DNA from: Pseudidiomarina planktonica
GTDB lineage: Bacteria; Pseudomonadota; Gammaproteobacteria; Enterobacterales; Alteromonadaceae
Assembly (NCBI RefSeq): GCF_900177775.1
Contig: NZ_FXWH01000001.1
Span: 248,001-312,000, forward strand
DNA: 64,000 nucleotides
Reading direction: 5' to 3'
Below are positions 627 to 38,764 of the stretch, in pieces. The notes under the pieces were generated by a model. The model made no database searches. It saw only the letters and a list, made by a program, of their open reading frames with translations, and was not told where the DNA came from. A program made the translations under genes and the position numbers. Every line of letters begins with the position of its first letter. Positions within the stretch are counted from its first letter, which is position 1.

Positions 627-2237
627 TTACTCTTTGAACTTTGAAGATACCGAGGAAAGTGTTTGAGAAAGGTTATTCAGTTCGCCAGAAATTGACTCAA
701 CATCTTTCAATAAATCCTGCGCCTGACTAAACGACGACGTCATTTTTTCCGTATTACTTACTATCATGGCCGCAACGCTTGATTGCTGGCGGGTTGCCGC
801 GGCAATTTGCGTGTTCAGAGTATTAATTTCATCAATCTCAAGGTTAATACTGGTAATAGAACCACCCGCATCGGTGGTCAGTTGAGCGCTTTCGCTGGCA
901 GTTTGTATAGCATCCCCAACAATGCTCACGGTGCTGTCGATGTTCTTGACCAACTCATTTAACACGTTGCGTATGTTGGAAACCGAACTCGCCGTTTTTG
1001 ATGACAAATGGCGAACTTCTTCCGCTACCACCGCGAAGCCTTTGCCATGCTGACCTGCACGAGCTGCTTCAATAGCCGCATTTAAGGCCAGCAGGTTGGT
1101 TTGGTCGGCAATGTCATTAATATTTTTCAGAATGTCGGTGACCTGACCGGTTTGCTCTGACAGCTTATGAATAACTTGTCCGGCGGTTTCCATTTGTTCA
1201 GTTAGTGAGCGTGAATGAGAAACCGACTTGTTCGCTTTGGCTAAGCCGGTGCCGGCAACAGATTTCGCGTTCTCAGCGCGGTCAGAAGCCTCGTGTGCGG
1301 ATTCACTAATTTCGGTCACCGAACTTTGCATTTCCAGCATGGCTTTAGCCACTTGCTGCACTTCTTCCGCCTGATGGTCTGTCATCTGATTCAATGAGTC
1401 CATCCCCTGACGAAGGTTCTGTGCGCTATCTCTTAGCGGTTCTATCAGCTGAGTAATATCTCCGAAAGAGTTTTGCAACAGGCTGATAAAAGCATTGAAT
1501 TCTTCCGCAACGCGGCCAAGTTCATCGTTACTGTTAATGGTTAAGCGTACCGACAGCGACCCGGTGCCGGTGGCAAGTTCATGCAGGGAGCGGACCAACG
1601 AGTTTGCCACCGCAACAATAGAACGACCGATAAAATGGCCGGTTACAGCGATTAGTAACACCAAGACCACACCAATAGTTGTGGTGGCCGTTAAGGCACT
1701 TTGCATATTCTCGGTTATTTCGTTTAGCTCCTGCTCAAAGGCGGCATGCGCATGCTGGTCAAAGTCGTCGAAGGCTTGGGTCAACTGATTAAAAAGCTCG
1801 GTTTTGTGCTCTATGTTTTTACCAACGGTGTTGAAGTCAACGGTGCCATCAACAAATGAAGATGCAATTCGGGAGGACAGCTGGGTATAGGTTTCCAGCA
1901 CCTGATTGGACTTAGTGAGCTGACTATAACTGGGGTCAATTTGAGTAACCTGCTGAATTAATTTGGCCAGATAACTGCTGCGTTCTTTGGCATTATTCAG
2001 CAAATCCGGGTCGGATAAGGTCACTGCTTGAGTAAAAAACTCGTCAACTGATTTGAATTCAACTTTGATTTGAGAAGCCAACATAGAAACGTCGTACATC
2101 TGGTCTTTCACCAGCGCCAGTCCGGTGTTGCTTTTCATGGTGAAAACGATGGATGAGCCTACCACGCAAGCAAAAGCTACGGCGGCCATAGCAATGATAA
2201 GCCAAATTTTTTGTAAAATGGATAAGTGGTTTAACAC
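627..2237 (-). CDS. methyl-accepting chemotaxis protein
   Basis: A 536-aa transmembrane chemoreceptor. It has an N-terminal membrane segment (about residues 8-30), a roughly 150-residue helical periplasmic ligand domain, a second membrane segment (about 185-208), a HAMP linker, and a long coiled-coil signalling domain. The conserved hairpin tip contains [19 protein letters not shown], which contacts CheA and CheW in this family. I chose the GTG at 2237 because GAGG lies 8 bases upstream; a TTG at 2258 is also in frame. It sits next to a porin and a periplasmic binding-like protein, so sensing of a periplasmic solute is possible but unproven. Confidence 0.9.
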
Positions 2238-13453: not shown

Positions 13454-13495
13454 TGTCAATTCCCATAATAAATGCAAATTTCCCATAATAAGCGC
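13454..13495. repeat. transposon left end: terminal repeat plus one internal copy
   Basis: The 22-bp terminal repeat occupies 13454-13475. A second, related copy follows at about 13477-13495, sharing TTCCCATAATAA. These are expected TnsB binding sites. The left end has two recognisable sites and the right end more, the same asymmetry seen in Tn7-like elements. Confidence 0.88.
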
Positions 13496-16238: not shown

Positions 16239-19200
16239 TTATCTATGTTTTCTTTTACGTCTTATTACTGTCGCTCGGACGCGGTCCCGCTCGAATCCGG
16301 CTGGCCGAGATTTAACTTGCTTGTACTCTTCCACCTTCCTAGTAAATGCGTCTAAATCTATATCTGCCATGTTGATAGCAATCTGTCCGGAACCGTGGAC
16401 GTGAGCAATTATCTTGTCGTAGGGTTGTTTGTATGGAGCTTGGATTGTAGAACCGCCGTAAATGCCAATATTTGCTATGACGACATGTTGGTACATATGC
16501 CAGTGCAAAGCTTTGGCCATATTATCGAACGTTGCGACGTCTGGGTTATAGGCTGCGACAATGAAAAGGTCTGACTTATCACGTAAGTCTGCTGATAAAT
16601 TTATATCTGTAGCATCATAGCAAATAGCGCCAGTAATCAGACGAGAGTTACCATCGTCACCGAAAACCTCTAGGAAGTGTTGGCATGGGCGGTGGGATTG
16701 CACCTCATTTGCCTTTTCTAATGGGATCAAATTTTGTTTACCTTGGTCCCGGAACATCCAAGTGCGTTCAGTACCTCTGTAATTAGGTATGAACCAACGC
16801 CCAAAATTAACTAATTTGCCATCTTTTTGGTTAAACACCATACCAGCGAAAACTATGGCCTTGGTCTTGTCCGCCAAACTTTTAATTAAATCTTGATCGT
16901 CGATATGAACCGATATCTCAGGAAAAACAATTAGATTTGCGCTCCGCTTATCTTTATTCCCAGCCGCAGAGGATCTTGTTTCTAACGTTTTATAAACTAG
17001 GCTGCAGACCGATGCAATATGCTCGCGATGAGATGCTCTAACTGTTGCTCGATTAAGCTCTATATCGTTTGTGAACCACTCTGGCTTTGGTAGTACGGGT
17101 TGAACTGTTACGATTCGGAAATTATTCAAGTCAAGATTCGGTCCCACCCGAGTTGGTAAACTAGGTACATCAGTAACTCCGCAGTACAATGAATCGAGCT
17201 TGACTATCCTATTTTCAATAACTTGAATAAGCTGCGAAATATCAGCTGCACCTGCTATATCTCTATGTTGTATCTTACTAACTTCAAAACCAGGCCATTG
17301 CAGGCACTTCATCAATAGCTCTGAAAACCAATCTGACACCGTTGCATCTTCGCCGACCATGGACTCCGGTGAGTGCATCATGGCCATACGCCTTTTAAAC
17401 CAAGTAGCCTTCACACCTTTATAAGAATCTACTTTGCTGTTGTGCCAAAGATTACCAGTATAATCTGGTGATCCAAGGATTGCGGCTCTAAGAACCATGC
17501 CTATCCAGTATACTTTTCGCTTATCTTCGTCATCGTCTATCCAGTTTGGAATAATGTATCTTGGATCTTTCGATTTATCTGACGCCACCTCATCTTTCAA
17601 TATATGAATATCAGTTGATGGTCGGTGAAGTTCATTCCATGTAGAGTCTTTTCCAAGCTTTATAGGAATTCCGTGTAACGAGATCGGGAAAAAGGCTTCG
17701 GTCGCTTTAAAATGCATAAGTAATGCTTTTGCTAGTTTCAAAAGCGAGTGTTCATAAGCGAAGATATGGTCGTTGGAAGTTATCAAGTCGAATAGAGTTT
17801 GCTTATCGCGTCGAAGTGTATGGGAGCGATATGGCCTGGCCCATTTAAATTCGTCTAATACTGGACTGTACTGCTTACGGTTTTGCTCTAGCTCAGTCCA
17901 GATATTCTCCCAAAATAAGCCACCTCTTTTTGCAAACGGAAGTAATCGGTCATTAAGTCGTCGAGTTGTTCTCTTACTTGCAATCTCTAAAAATCGTCTC
18001 GCGTAACTGTCATACTGACCTGTAATTTGACTTGCGATTTCGAATAATACCGCGGTCTGATGGCGATACTGGATATCTAACCCCGATAAAATTCGGAGAA
18101 GTTCGTTTTGTAGCGTTAGTTGTTGAATGCCGTCAAAATTTGGTGACTTACTATTATCAGAGCTTTTAAGATTTCCAACTAACGTAGGGCGATTTAAGGC
18201 CGCCAGAAGCATTAAGGCCTGACGACGGACGAATGTGGCATATTTGAACTCACGGTTAAGCGTTTTTACGGCAAATCTGGATAAGAGTTCGAGGATAGAT
18301 TTTGGTTCAAGACTACTGGGGAAATCCATTTTGTTGAAATAATATACAAAATCGACACCACAACGAAAGAGGTCTGCCAACAAGAAATTCATAATAGCTT
18401 GATTTATCGTATCGCTATTCTTTTTAGATCCACTCCTATCTGCAGCATCTGCGAAAGAACTCCGGTCAAAGATAACTTGAAGTACTGGTTCGAATAGCTT
18501 TGCATCGGGGTAGATTTCCATTGCCTTTCTAATCAACAACACTAATGAAGGGTCTGTAGTCCAGGCATGAATGAGCTTCTTTGCTAAGAGCTCATTCTCG
18601 GTATCAGCCAACAGTTCATTGTCGGTTTCACTAACCATTGATAGCGAGATGCGTCTCTTTTCTTTTACTACCGACTCGAGCCGGTTTGCGGCGAATCGCT
18701 TTAATGTATCGGCTCGTACATCATGATCATATTGGATTAACGTGTACAACTGCCGTTCATGTTTGTTACTTGGTGGGGTATTTTTTCCAGGAGCTGATGA
18801 TGGAGGTGTTAATAAACTTTCTAAAATACCTAACGTTGTATCAAGGCTATCCCGGTCATTGGGACCACTTAACTCCTGCTGAACTGATCTCAGACGGTGA
18901 GACATACTCCCAGAACTCGCCAAGTCGGCGACAGGATTTACTTTAGTTTTATCCTTGTTTATTTTTAATGTCGATCTACTCGAATTATCTAAAATCTCTT
19001 GAACAAACTTATCAACGATACCCTTTAACTCTTCCGTGTTGTTAATCTCTGCACTCACTACAAGACGTAAGTCGTCCACATAGCGGCAGTAATCATGAAG
19101 CCAAACGGATTGGGTTTTTGTAATAGGTTTATCAATCTTAGATATAATTGCCTCGTCAAACTCGATCATATAGACGTTTGCAAAAAAACCTGATGCTACT

Positions 19201-20126
19201 AGGCCTTGAGGTAGCCCCTTTGCAACATCTTTCAAGCCAAGCTTTGTCGCATGCTTGACTTCGTCTATATCCCAAGTCCAGTTTAAAACTCGTTTAGCGG
19301 TTAGCCAAAATACTTCATCCTTATCTGACGTATGAGTACTTTTATCTTCATTAGACATTTTCAGAAGTAGATCATTTAAATGTGCCAGATCGATTGAGTT
19401 GAAGAAGGATTTTAAATCTAAGCTAACAATATATACTTCGCGCTCACCAGACAGGTTCTTTTGAATGCTCTGGCCAATAGAGGCGGGGCGGCTTAGAAAA
19501 TTCTGATAATCGACAAAAAATTTCCGATAAGACTCTGAGTTGCCCCACCTGAACCAAGCGTCATGAGGGCTTCGCCAATCACAAACTAATCGGTTGCCAT
19601 AACTACATACCTTGTTTCTTTGGTCTGAGAACGGATCTTCTGTACATTCGCCTTGACGACTCTCTATACAATCAGCGAGACACAACATAACAGCGGTTGC
19701 ATATGTCTGATCTCTCACCGAAAGGTGTGAAAGCGGGCGTAATGGTAAACGAGAGTTCGATTTCCCAGATTTACTCTTTGATGAACTAACTAACTCTGTA
19801 GGTTGCCACCCTTGCTTATCACTAAATTCCCAAGTTTCACTTTTGCCAGCTAATATCAGTTCCGCTTTGTGAGTAGTAAGGTTTGGGCCTAAATCACTCC
19901 GCCACTTCTTAACGGATTCTTCGATGGTGAGTGCAGATACATCAAGGGCTAATGTATCTGCATACCAATTACGCGTACGGATGTAAGAATGAGATTTTTT
20001 CCATGCCTGAGTAAGTATCAATTCGTCTGAAAGTAAATCAAACGAAGGTTTTAACTTCCAATATTTTTCACGTAATAATTTCATCATGATATCCGCATCG
20101 GGTTTTGACGTACTTAAATTACACAT
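16239..20126 (-). CDS. defence-associated reverse transcriptase type 1 (RT-nitrilase)
   Basis: A 1295-aa fusion. Residues 230-360 hold reverse transcriptase motifs: YIVSLDLKSFFNSI (first catalytic Asp near 237), GLPQGLVASGF (305-313) and the catalytic YVDD (349-352). A long helical middle follows. The C-terminal 230 residues are a nitrilase (C-N hydrolase) domain with the complete Glu-Lys-Cys triad at about E1070 (FPE), K1130 and C1169 (AICYDAT). RT (UG1 clade) plus nitrilase is the architecture named DRT type 1, reported to protect against phage. The gene is divergent from the peptide cluster. The nitrilase substrate is not known to me. Confidence 0.92.
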   Translation of the reverse strand: MCNLSTSKPDADIMMKLLREKYWKLKPSFDLLSDELILTQAWKKSHSYIRTRNWYADTLALDVSALTIEESVKKWRSDLGPNLTTHKAELILAGKSETWEFSDKQGWQPTELVSSSKSKSGKSNSRLPLRPLSHLSVRDQTYATAVMLCLADCIESRQGECTEDPFSDQRNKVCSYGNRLVCDWRSPHDAWFRWGNSESYRKFFVDYQNFLSRPASIGQSIQKNLSGEREVYIVSLDLKSFFNSIDLAHLNDLLLKMSNEDKSTHTSDKDEVFWLTAKRVLNWTWDIDEVKHATKLGLKDVAKGLPQGLVASGFFANVYMIEFDEAIISKIDKPITKTQSVWLHDYCRYVDDLRLVVSAEINNTEELKGIVDKFVQEILDNSSRSTLKINKDKTKVNPVADLASSGSMSHRLRSVQQELSGPNDRDSLDTTLGILESLLTPPSSAPGKNTPPSNKHERQLYTLIQYDHDVRADTLKRFAANRLESVVKEKRRISLSMVSETDNELLADTENELLAKKLIHAWTTDPSLVLLIRKAMEIYPDAKLFEPVLQVIFDRSSFADAADRSGSKKNSDTINQAIMNFLLADLFRCGVDFVYYFNKMDFPSSLEPKSILELLSRFAVKTLNREFKYATFVRRQALMLLAALNRPTLVGNLKSSDNSKSPNFDGIQQLTLQNELLRILSGLDIQYRHQTAVLFEIASQITGQYDSYARRFLEIASKRTTRRLNDRLLPFAKRGGLFWENIWTELEQNRKQYSPVLDEFKWARPYRSHTLRRDKQTLFDLITSNDHIFAYEHSLLKLAKALLMHFKATEAFFPISLHGIPIKLGKDSTWNELHRPSTDIHILKDEVASDKSKDPRYIIPNWIDDDEDKRKVYWIGMVLRAAILGSPDYTGNLWHNSKVDSYKGVKATWFKRRMAMMHSPESMVGEDATVSDWFSELLMKCLQWPGFEVSKIQHRDIAGAADISQLIQVIENRIVKLDSLYCGVTDVPSLPTRVGPNLDLNNFRIVTVQPVLPKPEWFTNDIELNRATVRASHREHIASVCSLVYKTLETRSSAAGNKDKRSANLIVFPEISVHIDDQDLIKSLADKTKAIVFAGMVFNQKDGKLVNFGRWFIPNYRGTERTWMFRDQGKQNLIPLEKANEVQSHRPCQHFLEVFGDDGNSRLITGAICYDATDINLSADLRDKSDLFIVAAYNPDVATFDNMAKALHWHMYQHVVIANIGIYGGSTIQAPYKQPYDKIIAHVHGSGQIAINMADIDLDAFTRKVEEYKQVKSRPAGFERDRVRATVIRRKRKHR

Positions 20127-20500: not shown

Positions 20501-20608
20501 ATGAAATTAGCAAAACTAGAAAACCAAGTTGCAACTGCGAGCGATGGTGCGAACCTTGTCGGTGGACCATGCATGGTAATTGCTCTTGTTCTGTTTGTTG
20601 CAAAATAA
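20501..20608 (+). CDS. putative double-glycine precursor peptide (35 aa)
   Basis: ATG 20501 has a strong AGGAAG site 6 bases upstream. The product has a charged leader (MKLAKLENQVATASDGANLV) ending in GG at residues 21-22, then a 13-residue hydrophobic core (PCMVIALVLFVAK) with one cysteine. A leader with a GG site and a short core is the form of bacteriocin and RiPP precursors. The gene ends 25 bases before a perfect hairpin and is followed by two cupin-like proteins and a two-gene ABC transporter. The transporter lacks a C39 peptidase domain, so leader removal would need another protease. I do not recognise the class. Confidence 0.6.
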   Translation: MKLAKLENQVATASDGANLVGGPCMVIALVLFVAK

Positions 20609-20633
20609 ATAGAGCAGAAGTTCTGTAAAGGAC

Positions 20634-20663
20634 AATGTGGCTCAGAGTGATTTGAGCCACATT
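20634..20663. terminator. hairpin between precursor peptide and processing genes
   Basis: An 11-bp perfect stem (AATGTGGCTCA / TGAGCCACATT) with an 8-base loop, followed by only a short T run. It lies between the peptide stop and the next ribosome binding site. Such partial terminators or RNA stabilisers are common after RiPP precursor genes, where they let the precursor outproduce its enzymes. Confidence 0.75.
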
Positions 20664-20678
20664 TTAAAGGGAAAATTT

Positions 20679-21536
20679 ATGCAATTTTATGAAAGCACAT
20701 CTTCTAAGGTTCTAGATAAACTTCTCGATTTAGATGTTGATCCACTTGGTCAGTTCGACGAAATCATACAAAAAAATGATATAAAAGAAGAGGTGGCTAA
20801 GAAGATTAATGATCTCTTAGAGAATCCAGCTGCGAGTAATTTCAATAATTACTTAAACACTGTCCAATTAAATGACGTTGACAGCTTTATTGAGTTCAGG
20901 CTCGGAAGAGGAGAACGGTCGGCGGCAGTAGTTAGAATATTAGATACATCGCGACCACTCACAGAAAGAAAGCAATACATTATACCTAACGACGTCTGCA
21001 TAATTTTTTTTGGTAAGGGCGAGTGTGAAGCAACGGTTTATGAGTTTGAAGATGAACCAAATAATGACATTTTAAATCACAACAGAAAACTCATACGTAA
21101 AACGACGTCCATATTTAAAGATGGCGATGTAATTTACCTTAAATCAGGGATACATGCGTTTAGAATAAATTCGAATCGCAACCTGGCTTTTCTAGAGTTA
21201 AGCTCTAACTCGCACCAGCCTTTAGTATGGAACTTTGATGTACAAACGGAAAAAATGCTTCATCTTTCTTCGGGGAGCATACTTGACGCAAGAACCGCGG
21301 TTGCACTTGACATAATATCGTGTTTGGGAAAAGAGGATTGTGTAGATGTTGTAAGGAAGCATTACCACAGTACAAGTCAACATTACATAAAATGGAAAGC
21401 TATTGAAGCGGCGAGCTGCATTTCAACCAATTTAGCTACAGAGTTACTAATTGACGCATCACGTCAACCCCATCCAGATTTAAAAAATGCGGCTATAAAA
21501 TCCTTAGAGATGAATGGAGTCACTTATAATGGCTAG
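20679..21536 (+). CDS. degenerate cupin-like protein with helical repeat tail
   Basis: A 285-aa protein, start ATG 20679 behind AAGGGAAA. It shares its N-terminal helical part (LLENP..SNFNNYL) and beta-rich middle with the next protein (YLENPDSQNINHY), so the two look paralogous. At the position of the partner's HxH motif this copy has no histidines (IPNDVCIIFFGKG), so it probably does not bind the metal. It has an extra C-terminal 80 residues of HEAT-like helices (WKAIEAASCISTNLATELLI, then HPDLKNAAIKSLEMNG), suggesting a peptide- or protein-binding partner. Function inferred only. Confidence 0.55.
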   Translation: MQFYESTSSKVLDKLLDLDVDPLGQFDEIIQKNDIKEEVAKKINDLLENPAASNFNNYLNTVQLNDVDSFIEFRLGRGERSAAVVRILDTSRPLTERKQYIIPNDVCIIFFGKGECEATVYEFEDEPNNDILNHNRKLIRKTTSIFKDGDVIYLKSGIHAFRINSNRNLAFLELSSNSHQPLVWNFDVQTEKMLHLSSGSILDARTAVALDIISCLGKEDCVDVVRKHYHSTSQHYIKWKAIEAASCISTNLATELLIDASRQPHPDLKNAAIKSLEMNGVTYNG

Positions 21537-22296
21537 TTATTACGAACTCAAAAATGCCCCTGAGCCCATCAGTCTTGATGTCTTTTTGGATGAACTAGAC
21601 AAACTAGGTGACTCCATCTTTTCAAAAGAACATTTCGATAAAACCTTGCATCTTTTGCAGCGCCTATATGCAAATAGAGAGTTTCTCTTGGATGTTGTAA
21701 AAAACTATCTTGAAAACCCAGATAGTCAAAATATTAATCACTACACAAGCCAAGTATTCATCCTGGCGGAAAGGGAAAATTACACCATAAGAGCCCCAGT
21801 CTGGATCCCTGATGGTGAACTAGTATCAAGTCGAGTGTTTGCGTACGGATTAGCGCATGACCACAATTTTGACCTGTTAACTATAGGTTACCTTGGTACA
21901 GGCTACACTACCTATATGTACTCATATGATGCGGATGCTGTGACAGGGTTCAAAGGAGAAGATGTAAAGCTCAGTGATTGTAGCACCTTCAAATTAACCC
22001 AAGGATCAGCATTGTTCATGAAAGGTAATCATGATATTCACGTACAATTGCCGCCTAACGAACTAAGCATCTCGCTCAATATCTTAAAATCCTCTGGTTC
22101 GTCAACAAAGCAATTTGAATTTGATATTGAAAATCAAAAAATAATTAGACCTATTAGAAATGAAATAGGAAAATCGATACTGGAGTTGTCAGGCTACTTT
22201 TTTAACGATGAAACAGAAGGTAGATTAAAGACTTTCAGCAAGGCCACGGGCCTTATAAATTTTAACCAAAGAAATGAAGGTAATCTACTAAAGTGA
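21529..22296 (+). CDS. cupin-like putative metal enzyme of the peptide cluster
   Basis: A 255-aa protein. An N-terminal helical segment is followed by a double-stranded beta-helix-like region with cupin motif 1 as AHDHNFDLLTIGYLG (His about 110 and 112) and motif 2 as GSALFMKGNHDIHV (His about 168 and 171). These could form one iron or zinc site, as in cysteine dioxygenase-type cupins. I chose ATG 21529, overlapping the previous stop, with GGAG 9 bases upstream; ATG 21514 is also in frame. Paired with the degenerate paralogue upstream, it is the best candidate for a peptide-modifying enzyme, perhaps acting on the core cysteine. Confidence 0.55.
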   Translation: MASYYELKNAPEPISLDVFLDELDKLGDSIFSKEHFDKTLHLLQRLYANREFLLDVVKNYLENPDSQNINHYTSQVFILAERENYTIRAPVWIPDGELVSSRVFAYGLAHDHNFDLLTIGYLGTGYTTYMYSYDADAVTGFKGEDVKLSDCSTFKLTQGSALFMKGNHDIHVQLPPNELSISLNILKSSGSSTKQFEFDIENQKIIRPIRNEIGKSILELSGYFFNDETEGRLKTFSKATGLINFNQRNEGNLLK

Positions 22297-22302
22297 TCGT
22301 TT

Positions 22303-22974
22303 ATGCATATTAAATCATTGAAACATAAATATAAATCTGGATTTTCGATAGAAGTGTCAAACTTAAAAATAGATGATGGTTGCATAAATGCTTTCGTAGG
22401 AAAAAATGGTAGCGGAAAATCAACCTTTATCAAATCTCTTATAGGGATAATAGAGAGTGATGAATATTCTATTGCACCGAACTTTAGAGCAGCTTCTGTT
22501 CGGCGGGAGACGTCTGTTTTAATAGAAGGCAGTGATTGCTTCTATCCGACACATACAACGAGACAAAACTCAAAATATTTATCCTCTTGTCGAGGTGTGA
22601 AAGCCACTGACAACTACATTGAGTATCTAGCTGATGCGTTATCCTTTAAAGACAAAATAGACTCTCGTTGTTCTGAGCTTTCCACCGGTAACAAGCGCCT
22701 AGCTAGTATTATATCGTTACTAAGCTCCCGGCCTAAATATCTCTTTTTGGATGAGCCAACATTAGGTCTAGATTTCGAAGCGCTAGGAAAACTTCATTCG
22801 CTCTTGAGAGAGCTTGTAGATTGTGGATGTACGATAATACTTACGTCGCACGACCTGAGTTTTGTAGAAAATGTGTCTGATTCTTTTTACTTTGTTGCCA
22901 ATGGGAGTGTATCGAAAAAAAGTACATCTTTTGACATATCCTCTCTCTCTGACGGTGTATTAGAAAATGCTTAA
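22303..22974 (+). CDS. ABC transporter ATP-binding protein
   Basis: A 223-aa nucleotide-binding subunit. Walker A is FVGKNGSGKSTF, the signature is the variant CSELSTGNKRLAS, Walker B is YLFLDEPTLGLD, and the switch histidine is in ILTSHDLSF. It has no peptidase or membrane domain. The gene starts 6 bases after the cupin-like gene and overlaps the permease gene by 8 bases. Together they would export the peptide or give self-immunity in the manner of LanFEG-type ABC-2 pumps. Confidence 0.85.
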   Translation: MHIKSLKHKYKSGFSIEVSNLKIDDGCINAFVGKNGSGKSTFIKSLIGIIESDEYSIAPNFRAASVRRETSVLIEGSDCFYPTHTTRQNSKYLSSCRGVKATDNYIEYLADALSFKDKIDSRCSELSTGNKRLASIISLLSSRPKYLFLDEPTLGLDFEALGKLHSLLRELVDCGCTIILTSHDLSFVENVSDSFYFVANGSVSKKSTSFDISSLSDGVLENA

Positions 22975-23665
22975 TAAAATTAAAAATGAAGCTTTATTTT
23001 TCTTACAAGAGTTAAACGCTAAAAAGATAGAAGTTCTGTTTGGCACGATTTTTCTCTGTGCGATTTTTGTTGGTATTTTCTGGTTTACGGACAAAGAGCA
23101 AAGTAAGATAACTCAATATCTTCCTTATTATATGTTATGGGTATTGCTGTCTGGAGTCATATCTCATGTAATTAGCAGTATTAAAAACGATACTGATAAC
23201 AAAATGTTAGGCGTTCTAACTACATCGTTTTATTCCTACAAGAAAACGCTTGCCGCGAGAGTCCTAGTCAGAATCCCTTACGATATATTATTGTTTTTAA
23301 TTTACTTTTTCGTTCTGAAATTCATGTTCGATCTTAGTCAAGCTAATACTGGCATGATAATAGATATAATTATTTATTATGTTATTTTGATTCCCGTAGT
23401 TGTTTGTATTTCAATCTCTATTGGTAGTGCGCTATTTTTTGTTAAGCAACACGAATTAGTATCTATTATATCAAGTATAATGGTCGCACTCTTATTATAT
23501 CTGGCTTATGCATATGAAGCTTTCTTCGTCATAAGCGAAGGATTTTCTTCTACTACGGCTATTTACTTAGCAATTTACTCGCTACTATTTACAGCTTTAT
23601 CAGCGATAGGATTCAAGACTTTTGATTACACTCTCTACAGAAAAAAAAGAACTGGGGGGGTTTAA
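22967..23665 (+). CDS. ABC-2-like permease
   Basis: A 232-aa membrane protein with six hydrophobic segments: about residues 18-36, 50-67, 100-118, 128-152, 160-178 and 190-210. It has the ABC-2 style of a loop with conserved charged residues before the third segment. The start overlaps the ATPase stop, so they are translationally coupled. It ends the peptide cluster; 263 bases later a separate small transcript begins. Confidence 0.75.
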   Translation: MLNKIKNEALFFLQELNAKKIEVLFGTIFLCAIFVGIFWFTDKEQSKITQYLPYYMLWVLLSGVISHVISSIKNDTDNKMLGVLTTSFYSYKKTLAARVLVRIPYDILLFLIYFFVLKFMFDLSQANTGMIIDIIIYYVILIPVVVCISISIGSALFFVKQHELVSIISSIMVALLLYLAYAYEAFFVISEGFSSTTAIYLAIYSLLFTALSAIGFKTFDYTLYRKKRTGGV

Positions 23666-24170: not shown

Positions 24171-24827
24171 ATGGTCAAGAACCAAAGCATCACTATCGTT
24201 TTTGAAGGATCTCAAGTGCCTGTAACAATTTATATAATCTCTATCGCCGCTGCTGCTCTGATGGCTTACTTGGGAATAGTTAATCAACGAGAGGTTAACC
24301 GTAAACGCGCGGCAATTGATATGCTCGCCTCTCTAGAAGCGGATAAAGAGTTTCAGGACGCTGCAGAGGCGTTCAGAGATGTGCGTGATGGCAAAGGCGG
24401 GCTACTCGCAATGTCGCAGCTTCTTGAAAGAGTAACTGGCGGGTCAGAAAAAGCTTTAAAAAGCCAACAGTTTTTAATCGACAATTACCTTAACCAATGT
24501 GAATTACTATGTATAGGAATATACTATGGAGCTATTGATGAGCTCATTATGTTTAAATGGATGCGGGGTTCTTTAGTACATGATTGGCATGCCTCCAAAG
24601 ATTATGTGTACGCTATTAGAGAGAGTTCTGGTAATGACAATATTTTTGAGTACTTAGAAAAATTCGGGAAGGCTTGGAATGGTCCTCTTGACCCGAAGAA
24701 AATAGATGGAGTCGAGTATAAGATTTGTTTTGTCACCCGTAAGGACAATCCATATGATCTGTTAAACGGAAAAGGCAAGCCAGATGTGACCCAAGGATCG
24801 TTTTTTCGTTTCCGGACAAGACGCTAA
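24171..24827 (+). CDS. DUF4760-like membrane-anchored protein
   Basis: A 218-aa protein with one N-terminal transmembrane segment (about residues 17-37, VPVTIYIISIAAAALMAYLG) followed at once by a basic helical region (NQREVNRKRAAIDML) and a soluble helical domain with LIDNYLNQCELLCIGIYYGA. This is the layout of DUF4760 proteins, whose function is not established. It sits after the terminator of the small transcript and before an antitoxin-like gene. Confidence 0.6.
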   Translation: MVKNQSITIVFEGSQVPVTIYIISIAAAALMAYLGIVNQREVNRKRAAIDMLASLEADKEFQDAAEAFRDVRDGKGGLLAMSQLLERVTGGSEKALKSQQFLIDNYLNQCELLCIGIYYGAIDELIMFKWMRGSLVHDWHASKDYVYAIRESSGNDNIFEYLEKFGKAWNGPLDPKKIDGVEYKICFVTRKDNPYDLLNGKGKPDVTQGSFFRFRTRR

Positions 24828-24892
24828 TATTTTGATTGCAGTAAAAGCTATCAGGCGATTTTTGATCAGCGCTATTTTATGTAAGAAAGTCG

Positions 24893-25348
24893 ATGCGAAA
24901 AGGAGCCTTCAAACGACTGAGGGAATATATTGTGCAAACGAATACACTCACTGAAGACCCGAACCGATTTCAAGAACATCATAGCGGCGCTAGCGTTGAT
25001 GATGACCGACGATGTTTTGATATCGCCGTTAGAATGTTGGATTTTTGGGGGTTTAACGACCAAGAGAAGGCAAAAGTTCTTGGTGATATTTCTGTTTCAA
25101 CTTTTCGCAGATACAAACGAGGAGAAATGAAGAGGCGTTTAACTGCAGATTGCAGAACTCGCATTTCCTTAATCTTGGGTATCTATAAGGCTCTTCGCAT
25201 CATTTTTGTCCAAGATATGCACCACGCTAAGTGGGTCAACAATCCTAACAAACGTCTAAATGAATTGTCACCAAAAGCCGTGATGGTAATGGGGTCAATG
25301 ATAAACCTATACGATATACGTCGATATTTAGATGCGGTTCGAAACTAA
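24893..25348 (+). CDS. Xre/MbcA/ParS-type antitoxin-like protein (orphan)
   Basis: A 151-aa protein. The middle contains the Xre-like helix-turn-helix of this antitoxin group (WGFNDQEKAKVLGDISVSTF, RRYKRGEM). The C-terminal half matches the MbcA/ParS toxin-binding domain (WVNNPNKRLNELSPKAVMVM ... IRRYLDAVRN). The partner is normally a RES-domain toxin directly downstream, but none follows. A GTG at 24932 with GAGGG upstream is an alternative start. It may be an orphan regulator, or its toxin may have been lost. Confidence 0.75.
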   Translation: MRKGAFKRLREYIVQTNTLTEDPNRFQEHHSGASVDDDRRCFDIAVRMLDFWGFNDQEKAKVLGDISVSTFRRYKRGEMKRRLTADCRTRISLILGIYKALRIIFVQDMHHAKWVNNPNKRLNELSPKAVMVMGSMINLYDIRRYLDAVRN

Positions 25349-26694: not shown

Positions 26695-29600
26695 TTAGCT
26701 TCGATCTGAGTATTTAATGTTAAGATTCATCTCGTACTTCGGATCAGAAAGGCTAAATTTTTTCGAATTTCTTAGGTAGTTCGATGAATAGAGCTTTATG
26801 AGACGGGAGGCCTCAACCACCTCTATTTCTTTGGGTATGTGTTTTACTAATTCTTTGCTAATAATTACAATAGCTTTGTGCTTTGCTCTAGAGATAGCAA
26901 CATTAAAGCGCTCTAAACCAAAAATAAACTCTTCCTCCTGCATGATCGAGTCTCTATCACTTAAAGCGTAAGAAACAATAATTACATCTTTCTCTTGGCC
27001 TTGGAAACGCTCTACGGTATCAATCGCATCATATATTTTTGATTTATCAATACTAGGGCTCGACAATTTTTTGGTCAGTGAGGAATATATAGATGATTTC
27101 TGCGCGACATGTGGAGTGACGATACCCACCCCATGCTCAAAAAAATCGTCATGTCCGTAAGCTAGTGACTTTTCGCTAGGAGCTAAACTTCCATATAAAG
27201 CCTCGATAATTTCTACAGTCAACTCTGTTTCGACAGTGCTTCTCTGTGGGCTTGTGGTGTCGTCGTGGACTATACAAACAAGAGCTTTTTCTGGATCGAC
27301 CACAAACTCTAACCAATTATCGGATTGTCGGCTTGGCGTATTCGTGCGCTGTAAAGCGATTTTAGATTGCGCGTTATTAGAGCGGAATTCCTTTCTGTAG
27401 CCGGCATTTCTGCTGAAAGCAACAATTTCTTCATTCGAACGATAATTCAACTGAAGCATGGTCTTTTCTATGTTCCAATAACCGGTGTAGAAATTAAAAA
27501 TGCTTCCGAGCTGGCTTTCACAATGAAGAGGCATTTCCGCCTGAAATATCGGAGGCATTTGCTTATCGTCTCCCACAACCGTGAGAGATGCGTTTTCCGC
27601 AAAGCTTGGAAATACCATCATCATTGATGCCATATCTAGTTGCGATGCTTCGTCAACGATAATATGGTCAAACATTGGCTCAGTGCTACATTCATTTCCT
27701 GCCATTTTATTACGAATGTTGAAAACTTGCTGAGGGGTTGCGAATACTACTGTATGACGATTTTTGGTCCTTAATTGATGCAAAAGTTGACGCAAGTCAG
27801 GATTTTTTTCATCACTAGTTGCTACTAGACGAATTGGCTCGCTCAAGTGTTTTGGAGTAACCAGTTGGCTGGAAAATAGCCGATATAAATCAATTTCTAA
27901 ATCTTTATTAAAATTGTTTACCTCGTTTGCTAACTTGCGACATAAAGTGTCAATTGCTACCCAGGTGTTAGCCGTCACAAGCACTCTTAATGGTGCTTCT
28001 TCGTTGATGTTTCTATGATGGATAAGGGTCGCAATGCCTCTGGCAAGGGTTGATGTTTTTCCTGTCCCCGGTGGACCCCAAATAATTCCTAGTTTCTTAT
28101 CATGAATGGTTGAAACTGCATCGCGCTGGCTTTCATTAAGTTTTGAGTTTTCCGATGCTTCTAACAGGTCCAAAGTTTTAAGTATCTCATTAGGTTTTTT
28201 GGCTTTGGTGGGGAGCGAGCTTGCTGCCCATATAAAACTCTCACATGGTACCGTAGGGGTTATAGAACGCCTCTTCTGACGAGGTTTTATCCGATTAGGA
28301 ACAGATAAAACAGGTTTGCTATTAGCTAATGGGGGGTTCTTAATCGCTTTTATGCTGGATTTTATTTTTTTTAGAGAAAAGTTGATATGGATTGGATCAA
28401 TGATCGCTCGGTTTTTCGCAGTGATGCTTGAAAAGTCCACCGTGCCTGTACTGAAGAGTTTACTCCTGATTTCTGAACCCCAGTCCCTGAATCTAACAAC
28501 AATATATTTTGAATCTCTGTCAAATACTTCAACTGTTATGTCAAAGAGATTTCGTAATGGTTTATTCAAGATGCTTTTGTGTTTATCCGCAAAGTTCCGG
28601 TAATCCAAGCCTAGCTTTCTTAAAAAATATATTACTTTGTATGATGCTTCTGAAGATAGCTTTTCCGGCAAGATAGAATACCCAATGGAGTTCACTTTTA
28701 TTTTTGAGTGTATAGAGCGAGCGCAAACTTTGAAAACCATAGTGTTTTTTGAGTGAAGGTTATGCTCCTTCAGAATCTTCTTGGCGTCTGCTCCAGTGAT
28801 TCGTTGGTCCAATCGAATAGAGTAGAATCGCGCTTCTCGTTCATATTCATCTAAGCTTTGGACTCTATCTGTTTCAAATTCTTGAAGGGCGTTGTTTAGG
28901 CTAGCAAATGAGTACCAAATCTCACCATCGTGGCTAACTCCTGGTAGATCGTTTCTCGGCTCTAGTAACTTTAAAGCGGGACCATTTGGCCTTGCTTTGA
29001 GAGGAAAATCCTCATTGGCTCTTAGTATTATTCGATCTAAATTATTTAGCTTGTTTTTGCACGTCTGAATAACCTGCTTTTCAATTTCTTTGTAGTGGAA
29101 ATTGTTTCGCTCTGATTTCGACCAAATATCGTGGGCCCTCTCTGAGGGGATGTGATCTGATAAAGGATCGTTGTACATTGTTGAAAAAACACTACTTGGG
29201 GCAGCATCAAAAAAGCTTGGATAGTACTGCTGCGAAAGCAAGGTCATATTATAGTAGAATGGAATGTCTGCAGATACAGAGTTCATAATTAATGACTTAA
29301 CTATAGATAACGGTCGGCTGCTATTCGCGTACTTAGGATCGGGCAAAACCTCCTCGGATGGAAACATCCAACTGAATGATGCCAAGTCATCCGGAGAATT
29401 TAAAATATCTGTTAAATGTCTTGATATCACTCTTTTTAGTTGAGCAAAGGAAGTCTCATCCCATAAATATACTTGATATTTCAATTCATCATTTTCGGTT
29501 TTATGTTCATTTAAAAATTGCGTTATTTTGGTCAGCCATAAAAGGAGTATTGATCGCTCTGTATCATGCTTTTTCTCTTCAACAATATAAACGTCGCTCT

Positions 29601-30939
29601 TCAAACTTTCCCTTTTACCATTGTGAAGTTTCCAGGCTTTCCACGAGAAAGCTAAAGTTAGGCCAGAAGAAATATCAAACTCAACGCCGAGCAAAACATA
29701 AACACTTATAGACTTAGGTAATAAGGTATTACTTGAACGTGGAGCTCTTTTTGCTGTAAGTGAACCTAGCGCTGAAGCTCGTTCTGCGAGAACTGAGCGA
29801 GACGCTGTTAACGTATAGTGTTTGTCATATACTTTGTCCGTAGCTGACAAAGCTGATAGATCTTTAATAGTTTTTATTTTATGTTTAACTAAAACATCAG
29901 AAGCTCCTCGAGTGAGCCCAATCACTTGGCATAGTTCTTCTTTATCCACCGCTTTCGGCCAACAGTGCTCTTCGTGAATTTTGGTATTCTTAGTCCATTT
30001 ATAGCCTAGGTATTCGCAACCGATACAGGCCGGAGAAACATGCCATGGCAATTCATCCCATTTTTGTTCCAATAAAACTTGAGGAAGATCTTCCTCTAAG
30101 AACTCTTTGACACGGGATGTATATACGTCTTTCGGTAGAACAGTTAGGTCCTCATGCAGGGAGCTCGTAGCTTCCTCTGAGGAAAGTATGACTTTCGCTT
30201 TTTCCGCTTCTAAGTATTTTGTTCCTAACGTCGAGCCCAAGTGTTTTCCGGGCCAAACTGCAGCTTTGGCCGATACAAAGAAACGATCACTCAAATTATT
30301 ATCGACAAGCCACGCGGCGAGTATCATTGAATAAAATGCGACCTCACCAAAGTATGGGATTGATGCACTTGCCGCCAGCTTTATATCAATTACCCGCAAG
30401 CCAATAAGGTTTTGGGAAGCTATTTCAATTTCTCCGTTACTGGATATGGCCTCTCTATCAACGTCGTCATTTGGCGTAATTAGTTCTATTATGTCTGGGC
30501 GAAATTCTTTGGAGAATCTTAGTCCATGTTCACCTCGCTTCTTCAACTGCTCAGAGAGGTAGTTCAATTGAAATGTCTTTTCGAAGGAGGGAGAGACAGT
30601 GAAAGAAGGCTCTAAAATAAACCGTGGCAGCTCGCTTCGATTTAATACGTCTAGAAGGCTACAGCTTGTAAATTTTGACTTGGTATTGACTTTAAACAGG
30701 ACCTCATCGGAGAACACTTTTATGAGGTCGTTAAAAACCTCTTCTTCCCACGCTTGTCCAGCTTCTGTGAGGCCAACTAGAGCTGGCCGTCCTGAGTCTG
30801 CAGGTGGCATGGTGAGTTGCGCCGCCCGCTCATCACGAGCTTCAATGTTCGAGTCCTCGGGATATAAATCGAGTCTGAGTCGGCGAGCGCAATTAGTGCG
30901 TAAAAAGTGAGATAAAGCTTTCTTTTTTAGAGTTGCCAT
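26695..30939 (-). CDS. Fe-S RecB-like nuclease / SF1 helicase fusion
   Basis: A 1414-aa protein. The N-terminal third is a Cas4/Dna2-type PD-(D/E)XK nuclease, with D149 (RPDIIEL) and D185-x-K187 (LRVIDIKLA). Four cysteines, C17, C305, C308 and C326, are placed to hold an Fe-S cluster. A helix-hairpin-helix-like stretch follows (LCQVIGLTRGASDVLVKHKI). The C-terminal 460 residues are an SF1 (Upf1/Dna2-like) helicase: Walker A GPPGTGKT (955-962), Walker B VDEAS (near 1096), VERFQGQE and RFNVAISRAKH. This resembles TM0106-type nuclease-helicases. It is divergent from a DNA methyltransferase with 71 bases between, which suggests a restriction-like pair. Confidence 0.88.
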   Translation of the reverse strand: MATLKKKALSHFLRTNCARRLRLDLYPEDSNIEARDERAAQLTMPPADSGRPALVGLTEAGQAWEEEVFNDLIKVFSDEVLFKVNTKSKFTSCSLLDVLNRSELPRFILEPSFTVSPSFEKTFQLNYLSEQLKKRGEHGLRFSKEFRPDIIELITPNDDVDREAISSNGEIEIASQNLIGLRVIDIKLAASASIPYFGEVAFYSMILAAWLVDNNLSDRFFVSAKAAVWPGKHLGSTLGTKYLEAEKAKVILSSEEATSSLHEDLTVLPKDVYTSRVKEFLEEDLPQVLLEQKWDELPWHVSPACIGCEYLGYKWTKNTKIHEEHCWPKAVDKEELCQVIGLTRGASDVLVKHKIKTIKDLSALSATDKVYDKHYTLTASRSVLAERASALGSLTAKRAPRSSNTLLPKSISVYVLLGVEFDISSGLTLAFSWKAWKLHNGKRESLKSDVYIVEEKKHDTERSILLLWLTKITQFLNEHKTENDELKYQVYLWDETSFAQLKRVISRHLTDILNSPDDLASFSWMFPSEEVLPDPKYANSSRPLSIVKSLIMNSVSADIPFYYNMTLLSQQYYPSFFDAAPSSVFSTMYNDPLSDHIPSERAHDIWSKSERNNFHYKEIEKQVIQTCKNKLNNLDRIILRANEDFPLKARPNGPALKLLEPRNDLPGVSHDGEIWYSFASLNNALQEFETDRVQSLDEYEREARFYSIRLDQRITGADAKKILKEHNLHSKNTMVFKVCARSIHSKIKVNSIGYSILPEKLSSEASYKVIYFLRKLGLDYRNFADKHKSILNKPLRNLFDITVEVFDRDSKYIVVRFRDWGSEIRSKLFSTGTVDFSSITAKNRAIIDPIHINFSLKKIKSSIKAIKNPPLANSKPVLSVPNRIKPRQKRRSITPTVPCESFIWAASSLPTKAKKPNEILKTLDLLEASENSKLNESQRDAVSTIHDKKLGIIWGPPGTGKTSTLARGIATLIHHRNINEEAPLRVLVTANTWVAIDTLCRKLANEVNNFNKDLEIDLYRLFSSQLVTPKHLSEPIRLVATSDEKNPDLRQLLHQLRTKNRHTVVFATPQQVFNIRNKMAGNECSTEPMFDHIIVDEASQLDMASMMMVFPSFAENASLTVVGDDKQMPPIFQAEMPLHCESQLGSIFNFYTGYWNIEKTMLQLNYRSNEEIVAFSRNAGYRKEFRSNNAQSKIALQRTNTPSRQSDNWLEFVVDPEKALVCIVHDDTTSPQRSTVETELTVEIIEALYGSLAPSEKSLAYGHDDFFEHGVGIVTPHVAQKSSIYSSLTKKLSSPSIDKSKIYDAIDTVERFQGQEKDVIIVSYALSDRDSIMQEEEFIFGLERFNVAISRAKHKAIVIISKELVKHIPKEIEVVEASRLIKLYSSNYLRNSKKFSLSDPKYEMNLNIKYSDRS

Positions 30940-31010: not shown

Positions 31011-31943
31011 ATGCGAAAGACCATGCTAAAACCTGAAACGACAATACCGGGAACCAATTTCCAGAATAAAATCTATCAAGGCGACTGCGCTGAGATGTTG
31101 AAATCAATCGCTGATAATAGCGTGGACTTTATAATCACATCTCCGCCATACGCTAACCAGCGCTCTAAATCATACGGCGGAGTAAAGCCAAATGAATATG
31201 TAGAGTGGTTTCTTCCCATTGCGGAGCAACTTAAAAGGGTTCTAACCCAAGATGGTTCGTTCATTCTTAATATTAAAGAGCACGTAGAGAACGGTGAGCG
31301 ACATACTTATGTTCTCGAACTAATCTTAGCATTGAGGAAAATGGGGTGGCGTTGGACTGAGGAATATAGTTGGCACAAGAAGAATGCGTTTCCAGGAAAG
31401 TGGCCAAATAGATTCAGAGATTCATTCGAAAGGTGTTTACACTTTAATTTGGATAAAAGCTTCTATATGGATCAAGACTCAGTAATGGTCGAGATGGGCG
31501 ACTGGAAGGACAAGCGATTTAAGTATCTGACAGGTAATGATTTAGAGCGACACGCTTCGCAAGTTGGCAACTCGTTTGCGAAGAATATTGCTAACTGGGA
31601 GAAACGTGATAAAGCCTACCCAAGTAATGTCCTCAGCTTAGCGACAAACTGTAAAAACGTGGGTCACCCCGCGGCGTTTCCTGAATCACTACCTAGTTGG
31701 TTTATTAAGCTATTTACTCGTGAGAGAGGCGTAGTTTTAGATCCATTCATGGGCTCCGGTACAACAGCGCTATCCTGTATTAAATTGAAAAGGCAATTTA
31801 TTGGGATTGAAATGAGTGAGGAGTATGTCAAGTTGAGCTGTGATAAAATAAACAAGGCACTAGGATTAACCATAAAGCCTAAATCTAAACCAAAATCCAG
31901 AAAAAAAGGCGAGTGCCCTCACATGGCTCCGCTCGCTCCGTAG
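31011..31943 (+). CDS. DNA methyltransferase, beta class (N4-cytosine or N6-adenine)
   Basis: A 310-aa methyltransferase. Catalytic motif IV is DFIITSPPYANQ (SPPY at 44-47) and comes before the AdoMet motif I, VVLDPFMGSGTT (244-252); this order defines the beta class. SPPY is more usual for N4-cytosine enzymes. The C-terminal tail is lysine-rich. There are two possible ATG starts, 31011 and 31023. It is divergent from the nuclease-helicase, and the two most likely form a self/non-self module. The target sequence cannot be read from the protein. Confidence 0.88.
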   Translation: MRKTMLKPETTIPGTNFQNKIYQGDCAEMLKSIADNSVDFIITSPPYANQRSKSYGGVKPNEYVEWFLPIAEQLKRVLTQDGSFILNIKEHVENGERHTYVLELILALRKMGWRWTEEYSWHKKNAFPGKWPNRFRDSFERCLHFNLDKSFYMDQDSVMVEMGDWKDKRFKYLTGNDLERHASQVGNSFAKNIANWEKRDKAYPSNVLSLATNCKNVGHPAAFPESLPSWFIKLFTRERGVVLDPFMGSGTTALSCIKLKRQFIGIEMSEEYVKLSCDKINKALGLTIKPKSKPKSRKKGECPHMAPLAP

Positions 31944-36954: not shown

Positions 36955-37364
36955 TTTATAGAACAGTCACGGGAATTGCAGTTGTTTTGGCAGTCTTATT
37001 ATCCGGCTGCAATAGTCACGCTGATACCAAAGATCCGGAAACTATGTACGATATCGCGTCAGAGCTAAAAGATATATCAACATCAGTTCAGGGGCTTGTT
37101 AAATATGGTAATGGCAATGAACTCTCTGAGTCTAACTTGATACTGCAGGCTATCGATAACGACGAATCTAGATTAGAGATCTTTAGCGATTACACCTTGC
37201 GCGTGCGAGTGGACGGACAACGCTCATCTGTTTTGCTTTGTGATGATGATATAGCGCTTATCGAGGATTCGGGATGCACGCCTGAAGTTGATCTTCACCA
37301 CTGGAATACCGACGTAGCAAATCAATGCAGTTTTGTTCTTAACCTTGACAAAGTATGTGACTAA
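36951..37364 (+). CDS. small lipoprotein coupled to the phospholipase-like gene
   Basis: A 137-aa protein with a lipoprotein signal peptide (VLAVLLSGC, lipidated Cys near residue 20) and a soluble domain with several further cysteines (LLCDDD, DSGCTPE, NQCSF, KVCD), which may form disulfides in the periplasm. ATG 36951 overlaps the upstream stop as ATGA. Its stop overlaps the convergent tniE stop by 4 bases, so it marks the boundary between cargo and transposition genes. Family not recognised. Confidence 0.65.
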   Translation: MIYRTVTGIAVVLAVLLSGCNSHADTKDPETMYDIASELKDISTSVQGLVKYGNGNELSESNLILQAIDNDESRLEIFSDYTLRVRVDGQRSSVLLCDDDIALIEDSGCTPEVDLHHWNTDVANQCSFVLNLDKVCD

Positions 37365-38764
37365 TTCTGTTTAGCCCTTAGGCGTGTCAGGGGGTTAGGT
37401 ACCCAGTAACTCTCTCCGTAAAGAGAGACACTAAAACCATCTTCGACGGTATTAAATTCTGTTATGTCTTGTGCCCAAGCGCTGATGTGATGAAGATATG
37501 ATATCGAAGTCGCTAAGTATTCTCGGATATTTAGCGGCTCATTTGTTGGCGTTAAGCAACTTTCGACTAAGTGTTTTAGTTTTAACTCTGCGCTGACATT
37601 TGGGTACATCAATGGGCGGTCGACAAACAGAGATAAGTAGCTGATGAATCGGGTTAGCGAGCACCGCACTCCGGGCGATTTTATTGCCAATGTTAATAGA
37701 CCATCTTCGATGAGATTCAGGTCAGTTATGGTTTCAAATAACAATCGCACGCTAGTTGATTCAAGTCGTATGGTTAGAAGCTTCGTTTTCCCAGTCTTAT
37801 ACTCATCAATGCGATCTGCAAAGTAAGTTTCAACAAGGGGGATGCAGTTTGCGGCAGATTTCAGTCTAATAATATCCAAGTTCTTATTTATTGTGCGCAG
37901 GTCCATGGCTTCTTTTAGGGCCAGGCGATGAAAGTGAGTGCCGGTTGATTCTAGATATCGTCTCGGTAGCGAAGATGCCCTGAGGAACCCGCCGTGAATA
38001 GACGATAGAAAGAATACATCTTCTGTCCAAACAATAGGACTTTCCTGCAGTCGCATAAAGAATTCTACAAACCGATTCTGAGTAAACGCTGATTTTTCAG
38101 CGCCCACTTCCAGAGTCAACCAATCGACAAAACCTGAGAATAACTGCTCGATACGTGGGGATGTAAAACCTGCACAGTTAATGTCTTTGCGCTTGCCATT
38201 GCGCCTCAGGGCTGAGCAATGATCACACAAGGCATTTCTAGCGCCTTTAGTTGGTGTGTTGCATCCCTGACAAAAATAGATTTTACTATTCGCGCAGCCA
38301 GAGCAGATAGATATGCCTGATTTTATCTCGTGCAAAGCCCGCCTAGCACCGCATTGAGGGCATTTAGGATTCAAGCGATAACGGCAATTTCTGCATAATG
38401 CTGTGCTTAAGTTGTATTTCTTACCGATAGATAATATTGCTACTCGGCCACAAAGGGAGCACTTACTTTCTGGCCTTAATTCATTTGCGCATGAACTGCA
38501 AAACAAGCCGAATTTATCGATCTTTCCGACCGGACGGCCAATACGTTCGCAGCGTCTGCACGGCGTTACTTTGGAGTAGCATTGATAACATAGAGGACGC
38601 TTTTCCGCACGGTGAATGCGTTTTGTTTTGTTGCAATTCGAGCACTCTCTTTTTATAAAAAAGTATGTATAACATGGGCCACAGTAACGCTTACCGCGAT
38701 ACTTACGATGAATAGTATCTGCGTATTGTTTGCATTGGTCGCATTGTCTTAGATCGTCCATCAT
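37361..38764 (-). CDS. tniE: TniE-type accessory protein with zinc-ribbon array
   Basis: A 467-aa protein, fifth gene of the transposition operon. The first 210 residues hold about a dozen CxxC pairs (CDQCKQYAD, CGPC, CSNCNKT, CYQC, CRRCER, CSSC, CSLCGR, CRNC, CPQCG, CSGC, CQGC, CDHC), a string of zinc ribbons. The C-terminal 250 residues are helical and unrecognised. In Tn6022/AbaR backbones a gene called tniE holds this place; I name it by position and layout. It overlaps tniQ by an ATGA. Multiple zinc ribbons suggest DNA recognition, perhaps of the comM site. Confidence 0.7.
   Translation of the reverse strand: MMDDLRQCDQCKQYADTIHRKYRGKRYCGPCYTYFFIKRECSNCNKTKRIHRAEKRPLCYQCYSKVTPCRRCERIGRPVGKIDKFGLFCSSCANELRPESKCSLCGRVAILSIGKKYNLSTALCRNCRYRLNPKCPQCGARRALHEIKSGISICSGCANSKIYFCQGCNTPTKGARNALCDHCSALRRNGKRKDINCAGFTSPRIEQLFSGFVDWLTLEVGAEKSAFTQNRFVEFFMRLQESPIVWTEDVFFLSSIHGGFLRASSLPRRYLESTGTHFHRLALKEAMDLRTINKNLDIIRLKSAANCIPLVETYFADRIDEYKTGKTKLLTIRLESTSVRLLFETITDLNLIEDGLLTLAIKSPGVRCSLTRFISYLSLFVDRPLMYPNVSAELKLKHLVESCLTPTNEPLNIREYLATSISYLHHISAWAQDITEFNTVEDGFSVSLYGESYWVPNPLTRLRAKQN

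Follow-up and report, generated by a model that had tools for sequence, protein, structure and literature searches.

A conserved operon family that pairs a short precursor-like peptide with two predicted cupin proteins, carried by a Tn7-like element in Pseudidiomarina planktonica

PbsQ, a JmjC-related cupin-like protein, hydroxylates an ornithine of the precursor of a ribosomally synthesized and post-translationally modified peptide (RiPP), according to the part of the source available (PMC12257519), and McaB, a cupin-like protein of a mobile-element microcin locus in Acinetobacter baumannii ATCC 17978, is sufficient for protection, going by the accessible sections of that report (PMC10333792). 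The accessible portions of PMC9426513 and PMC10783134 mention further cupins in the neighbourhood of RiPP genes; all of these are set beside the proteins treated here by description. Here we analyse an operon in a stretch of 64,000 nucleotides (nt) of the Pseudidiomarina planktonica genome (NCBI RefSeq assembly GCF_900177775.1, contig NZ_FXWH01000001.1, positions 248,001 to 312,000; this whole stretch is called the window, and its own numbering is used) that encodes a short precursor-like peptide (P), two homologous proteins (A and B) and an ATP-binding cassette (ABC) transporter pair, all inside a Tn7-like element. No description of an operon of this kind was found in searches of an open-licence paper library, which does not prove its absence from print.

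The conserved peptide operon family is real: P, A and B are conserved and keep their order, a hairpin follows P in most of the loci folded, P is under coding selection, B has a dioxygenase-like predicted fold with conserved histidines that A lacks, and peptide exporters stand beside some relatives. On this basis we consider it fairly probable that the operon makes a small ribosomal peptide, with P as precursor, A as leader-binding partner, B as metal-dependent modifying enzyme, and the ABC proteins serving export or protection. In the window all parts lie on the forward strand. P (20501–20608) runs from its ATG at 20501 to a stop codon at 20606–20608, encodes 35 residues (MKLAKLENQVATASDGANLVGGPCMVIALVLFVAK) behind the ribosome-binding region AAAGGAAG, and is assigned from its sequence, its profile rank and the same position in relatives. 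The hairpin (20634–20663) is followed by A (20679–21536), a predicted cupin barrel of the thiol-dioxygenase type with C-terminal HEAT-like helices (from Pfam, fold match and alignment), B (21529–22296), a predicted cupin of the same type and a likely metalloenzyme (from its model, PDB matches and invariant H110, H112 and H171), an ABC transporter ATPase (22303–22974; ABC_tran, E = 6.8e-19) and an ABC-2 type permease (22967–23665; ABC2_membrane, E = 2.9e-5, just under the family cut-off). A and B share 8 nt, as do the ATPase and permease genes, and a gap of 6 nt separates B from the start of the ATPase. Every operon feature that a first-pass annotation of this DNA had listed was recovered where it had been placed; its term ‘cupin-like’ agrees with the barrel predicted in both A and B. 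It had assigned the operon to no RiPP class, and no known RiPP enzyme occurs among the operon proteins. Promoter-like matches in the operon region were not above chance (10, against a chance mean of 13.3); searches of plasmids with A (tblastn) and of E. coli genomes with the operon (blastn) gave no match, and in PADLOC neither A nor B nor the permease belonged to any family, while the ATPase matched ABC/AAA-type ATPase components.

Searching 295 genomes of the order with A gave four matches, including the genome of origin (2.57 Mb, with one match to A); in the three others (L005–L007) A is followed by B, and a short open reading frame (ORF) with a hydrophobic tail lies, together with a hairpin, upstream of A. 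L006 also has, between A and B, a 245-residue ORF without a Pfam match (1258–1995, reverse strand). An alignment of the four B sequences gave 177 places in a species-genome collection, and the best 80 of these (L008–L087), with the window and L005–L007, make up 84 loci (83 without L074, which duplicates L005). The genera among these best 80 of 177 are mostly Sphingomonadaceae and Erythrobacter-type, with Lysobacter, Dyella, Tahibacter, Nevskia, Niveispirillum and Maricaulis as well as Mucilaginibacter, Flavobacterium, Dyadobacter, Hymenobacter and Blastopirellula, so that the B relatives span Sphingomonadaceae, other Pseudomonadota, Bacteroidota and one planctomycete. With B as query, relatives were found in 15 of 398 genomes of the phylum, in 2 of 274 of the class, and in 87 of 249 sampled genomes of one family, which we call Sphingomonadaceae-type, as its peptides are identical to those from named Sphingomonadaceae loci. 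In 81 of the 84 loci A precedes B on the same strand, with a spacing of -60 to 100 nt in 77; the exceptions are L027 and L071, at contig edges, and L024, in which by eye only the 3' end of A seems left, near a transposase-like ORF. A single relative (L112) was found on viral contigs, at a contig edge: this B relative, at 1–884 of a contig classed as viral, lies beside ORFs judged by eye to be recombinase-like and replication-like.

The peptide recurs together with the two proteins. A P profile was seeded with seven short ORFs that lie upstream of A behind a ribosome site, and was then iterated. Run against the complete set of small ORFs from the 83 non-duplicate loci (12,564 ORFs; cut-off E ≤ 0.05), it recovered 66, seeds included. 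Of these, 64, from 60 loci, lie upstream of A at a distance of at most 700 nt; the search made no use of position, but the seven seeds had been chosen upstream of A. The two matches elsewhere are a divergent ORF in L017, on the strand opposite to A, and an extra copy in L079. P was recognised in 71 of the 83 loci (in 70 with the same orientation as A), that is, in 63 by profile (61 by ORF search, plus L029 and L072 by six-frame search) and in 8 by eye (L005, L006, L009, L012, L018, L057, L082 and the window), so that a short peptide is conserved upstream of the two proteins across genomes, an outcome which the first-pass annotation had named as support for its reading. In 14 loci outside the training of the profile (L088–L097, L107–L109 and L111), it found P in 10 (L088–L097, some of them near-copies of training loci), every one directly upstream of A, and L107–L109 have one P each by eye only. 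Tandem copies of P occur in L012, L054, L079 and L085: three differing precursor-like peptides precede a single A–B pair in L012 (Niveispirillum), and L054 and L085, two Sphingomonas genomes, have two tandem A–B pairs each, with their own peptide type upstream of each pair.

Coding selection on P is apparent from its third-codon-position bias, with 517 substitutions at the third position against 299 and 173 (30 close pairs, non-independent). In most relatives the leader contains I-D-x3-LPxLxTxVGxxGS, a motif conserved over distant genera, and is followed by a variable hydrophobic tail; of the 66 peptides, 89% have a hydrophobic run of at least 8 in the tail, whereas among 3,968 other ORFs of 35–60 residues only 5% have one in their last 25 residues. 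By its leader motif and codon bias, the P family represents a genetically encoded precursor with leader and core, as expected of a RiPP. Ten P peptides, the window’s included, had no match above cut-off in NCBIfam, nor had ten (nine of them common to both sets) in Pfam, where window P likewise had none.

The window copy was compared with every small ORF of the whole window (864). A profile built from the peptides of 15 relatives, window P left out, ranked it first (E = 0.017; next 1.7), this profile being biased towards P in that its members had been picked for a GG..C motif, and the broad profile also ranked it first (E = 0.21; next 0.35). With the 15-peptide profile, window P groups with a VGGPxC subfamily, and 13 residues follow its GG. 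The GG-ended leader and cysteine-containing core of the first-pass annotation describe window P correctly but do not extend to the family, given that the GG leader end is limited to the window and one subfamily and that, among the 66 peptides recovered by profile, a Cys follows the leader motif in only 20. The idea that GG is cleaved throughout the family was rejected, on the grounds of its confinement to one subfamily and of a genome of origin without a C39 peptidase match.

The hairpin between P and A, first described as a perfect stem of 11 base pairs, is present with 13 pairs, one of them G-U. The 70-nt stretch around it (20609–20678) folds with z = -5.03, and 0 of 200 dinucleotide shuffles fold equally well; a consensus terminator scan did not report it, the T residues after the stem being too few. 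In a sample of 17 loci, chosen rather than random and with the window included, the P–A interval folds strongly (z ≤ -2) in 12, so that hairpins occupy the same place in most of the 16 further loci folded, with stems that differ in sequence between loci. The window hairpin is probably a partial terminator (that is, an attenuator).

Profile alignment with hhalign (97.8%, E 1e-12) shows A and B to be homologues, and both resemble thiol dioxygenases in predicted fold. The model of B (predicted local distance difference test (pLDDT) 87.8; predicted template modelling score (pTM) 0.81) has thiol and cysteine dioxygenases as its top PDB matches (best 3uss, E 1.2e-7, template modelling score ~0.6 by target), and that of A (pLDDT 88.1) matches best the mercaptosuccinate dioxygenase 8vni (E 6.4e-9). 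All 55 aligned B sequences keep H110, H112, H171, R88 and W92, which places a three-histidine metal site in the predicted cupin barrel, and a by-eye motif alignment sets HDH on HDH and DIH on DIH at the metal ligands of dioxygenase sequences; A has no His-rich barrel column. B, which adjoins P and has an enzyme-like site as predicted from fold and conserved residues, is likely a metalloenzyme with a three-histidine site, whereas A looks, from its alignment, like a pseudo-enzyme, that is, a B homologue without metal ligands. Of the two cupin enzymes first envisaged, the metal site is therefore kept in B only, and A as a second metal enzyme was rejected for lack of ligand residues.

The B profile gave a weak match to five dioxygenase-like sequences (probability 27%, E 6.5e-4), that of A a probability of 16%, and a PDB sequence search with the B profile found no real relative (best E 0.075). 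At E ≤ 0.01, none of the sequences of B (55) or of A (48) was assigned to PF05995 (CDO_I), which was matched in 0 of 59 relatives and in 8 of 150 of the phylum. None of the 55 B sequences was listed against NCBIfam and none passed the cut-off in Pfam, where B had weak matches only (HEAT_2 in 10 of 55, two other families in one each); HEAT_2 is found in 35 of 48 A sequences and, at E = 3.6e-4 but below cut-off, in window A.

An ABC ATPase and a hydrophobic protein directly follow B in the window and in L005, and come one gene further on in L009; the membrane proteins after B in L005 and L009 had no Pfam match. Neighbours were annotated for selected genes, so that the C39, LanC, ABC and regulator cases given here are examples rather than frequencies: L015 and L109 have C39-containing ABC exporters as neighbours, L021 has a C39-VKOR protein nearby, and L015 encodes a LanC-like protein. 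The first-pass remark that C39 and lanthipeptide-type proteins are missing therefore holds for C39 in the genome of origin and fails for some relatives, which carry C39 proteins or LanC.

P, the hairpin and A/B recur together in many bacteria, which points to a family of small peptides that these cells would make, probably modify, and export. We propose that P would act as a precursor with a leader followed by a hydrophobic core, and that the hairpin, as a partial terminator, would keep P mRNA more abundant than A/B mRNA. A may bind the leader and present the peptide to B, the cupin of predicted cysteine-dioxygenase fold with its three-histidine site, which may in turn oxidise the core (perhaps at Cys in the VGGPxC subfamily and at another residue elsewhere), and the ABC pair could export the product or protect the producer. 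Chemical modification of the peptide is what we infer, with immunity and signalling as rivals. The fullest form of this proposal is a new RiPP class in which B, with its paralogous pseudo-enzyme A, oxidises hydrophobic, mostly Cys-free peptides guided by LPxLxTxVGxxGS, spread over at least three phyla and borne by a Tn7-like carrier in the window; this we hold tentatively, with a chance a little short of even.

Several observations weigh against the modified-peptide reading. P was not recognised in 12 of the 83 loci by profile, six-frame search or eye, namely L008 and L075, four loci in which most of the upstream sequence is missing (L027, L028, L067 and L071) and six Bacteroidota (L015, L021, L024, L025, L044 and L047), whereas the outcomes that the first-pass annotation had named as refuting, namely homologues consistently without a small upstream ORF or a 35-codon frame not conserved in relatives, were as a rule not seen. 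L111 has only a divergent ORF, which the profile rejected and which is not counted as P (342–494, reverse strand, located upstream of A; its 50 residues begin with an acidic, leader-like stretch and contain IAGA, but end in no hydrophobic tail). Window P is itself weak by sequence (broad profile E = 2.1 in the 12,564-ORF search), and z lies above -2 in 5 of the 17 loci folded (L012, -1.90; L084, -1.66; L083, -0.72; L063, -0.61; and L009, 0.00, with no strong stem between P and A). No residue of the P core is conserved across the family, so that no modified position can be named, and Cys is absent after the leader motif in 46 of 66 peptides, on which account thiol dioxygenation of a universally conserved Cys was rejected. 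In the same by-eye alignment, B does not keep the Ser-His-Tyr triad of cysteine dioxygenase, the columns being S182 and N184 (each 54 of 55) and M, L, V, I or C, with no Tyr, at 186. An ABC-like gene is, by motif, absent next to B in most Sphingomonadaceae-type loci, and Peptidase_C39 (PF03412) was not matched anywhere in the window’s whole genome, which leaves cleavage at GG by a peptidase of this kind without support there; the RiPP precedent for a cupin and the lack of a C39 match weigh in opposite directions.

Alternatively, P might be an unmodified microcin- or bacteriocin-like peptide, with A and B as its immunity or handling proteins rather than modifying enzymes. The peptide is hydrophobic, C39 exporters accompany some relatives, and McaB, likened to A and B by description from the available part of PMC10333792, protects alone against the Acinetobacter microcin; we nevertheless think this unlikely, given that none of the 55 B sequences departs from the three histidines, R88 and W92, which suggests catalysis, and that conservation in P is stronger in the leader motif than in the core, as recognition by a shared partner would lead one to expect. 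P could also be solely a regulatory leader peptide, the translation of which controls the hairpin and A/B expression while A and B do something else, as the hairpin right after P in most loci folded might indicate. Such a role is very improbable, however, in view of an amino-acid motif conserved over distant genera, the three different tandem P copies before one A–B pair in L012, the third-position bias in P and the C39 peptide exporters beside L015 and L109.

Compatible with the modified-peptide reading, although rather doubtful, is a peptide signal or cofactor system that has long resided in Sphingomonadaceae-type bacteria, was picked up elsewhere by mobile elements and has a product that is not an antibiotic. 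B occurs in 87 of the 249 genomes of that family, flanking gene clusters are common to loci (cluster 4 in 16, cluster 6 in 15 and cluster 10 in 11), and regulators lie near the operon, namely an extracytoplasmic function (ECF) sigma factor (L023), an OmpR-type protein (L037) and a histidine kinase with LytTR (L007); yet the P core varies between relatives, which is more usual for antagonistic peptides, and outside the family B occurs only here and there (15 of 398 genomes of the phylum, 2 of 274 of the class).

The element that carries the operon (13454–43427; 29,974 bp) is Tn7-like by all features looked for, and bears out the first-pass placement of the operon in such a transposon: it encodes TnsA, a Mu-type transposase, TniB (a TnsC-type ATPase) and TniQ, has inverted ends TGTCAATTCCCA(T/C)AATAAATGC at 13454 and 43427, and is flanked on both sides by the 5-bp target duplication GGTTC. 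It interrupts a gene whose two halves match the Mg-chelatase ChlI family, presumably comM/yifB. Adjoining the operon in the same element is a full-length match to the DRT type 1 reverse transcriptase-nitrilase defence protein (16239–20126, reverse strand; PADLOC Drt1a, E = 0). A 1414-residue helicase-like protein with partial PADLOC matches to DpdJ and MkoA/MkoC (26695–30939, reverse strand) is followed by a DNA methylase (31011–31943), the two together being possible further defence cargo. At 24171–25348 lie a DUF4760 protein and an Xre/ParS-like antitoxin-type protein, and right after TniQ a 467-residue cysteine-rich protein without a Pfam match (37361–38764, reverse strand) is possibly a target-selection protein of the element.

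In summary, these data suggest an operon family that is RiPP- or microcin-like, with small peptides that are absent from the family libraries searched. It offers a testable candidate peptide class that family-based mining would miss, because the 55 B sequences and the ten P peptides compared with each library have no Pfam or NCBIfam match above cut-off and A is recognised chiefly as HEAT; if B does oxidise Cys-free peptides, the cysteine-dioxygenase fold would have been recruited for new peptide chemistry.

Among known systems, cysteine and thiol dioxygenases (CDO_I, PF05995; mercaptosuccinate dioxygenase) share with A and B the predicted fold and with B the three histidines and aligned HDH/DIH motifs, but A and B differ in having no PF05995 match, only a weak profile resemblance, an unkept triad, extra N-terminal and HEAT-like C-terminal helices, and an adjoining peptide gene. 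PbsQ and BpmG, compared with B by description from the available part of PMC12257519, are of cupin fold and oxidise a ribosomal peptide precursor, as proposed for B; in that part of the source, however, PbsQ is JmjC-domain-related and its step follows those of an MNIO and an arginase, and the operon showed none of these. Ten residues of the L083 peptide match the daptide model MpaA2 (NF041806; E = 0.067), a match that, at 12.9 bits against a cut-off of 40, is far below threshold and likely reflects composition only. Class II microcins with C39 exporters, such as Mcc17978, are alike in leader peptide, adjacent cupin-like protein and mobile element, as far as the accessible sections of PMC10333792 go, and in the C39 exporters of L015 and L109; they differ in that the genome of origin has no C39 match and the operon has an ABC-2 pair and two homologous cupins with HEAT-like tails (McaB being compared by description). 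Although it differs from RiPP operons in having no known RiPP enzyme among its proteins, the operon resembles them in its short precursor with conserved leader and variable hydrophobic tail, in the tandem precursors of relatives, and in its hairpin, adjacent candidate enzyme and transporter.

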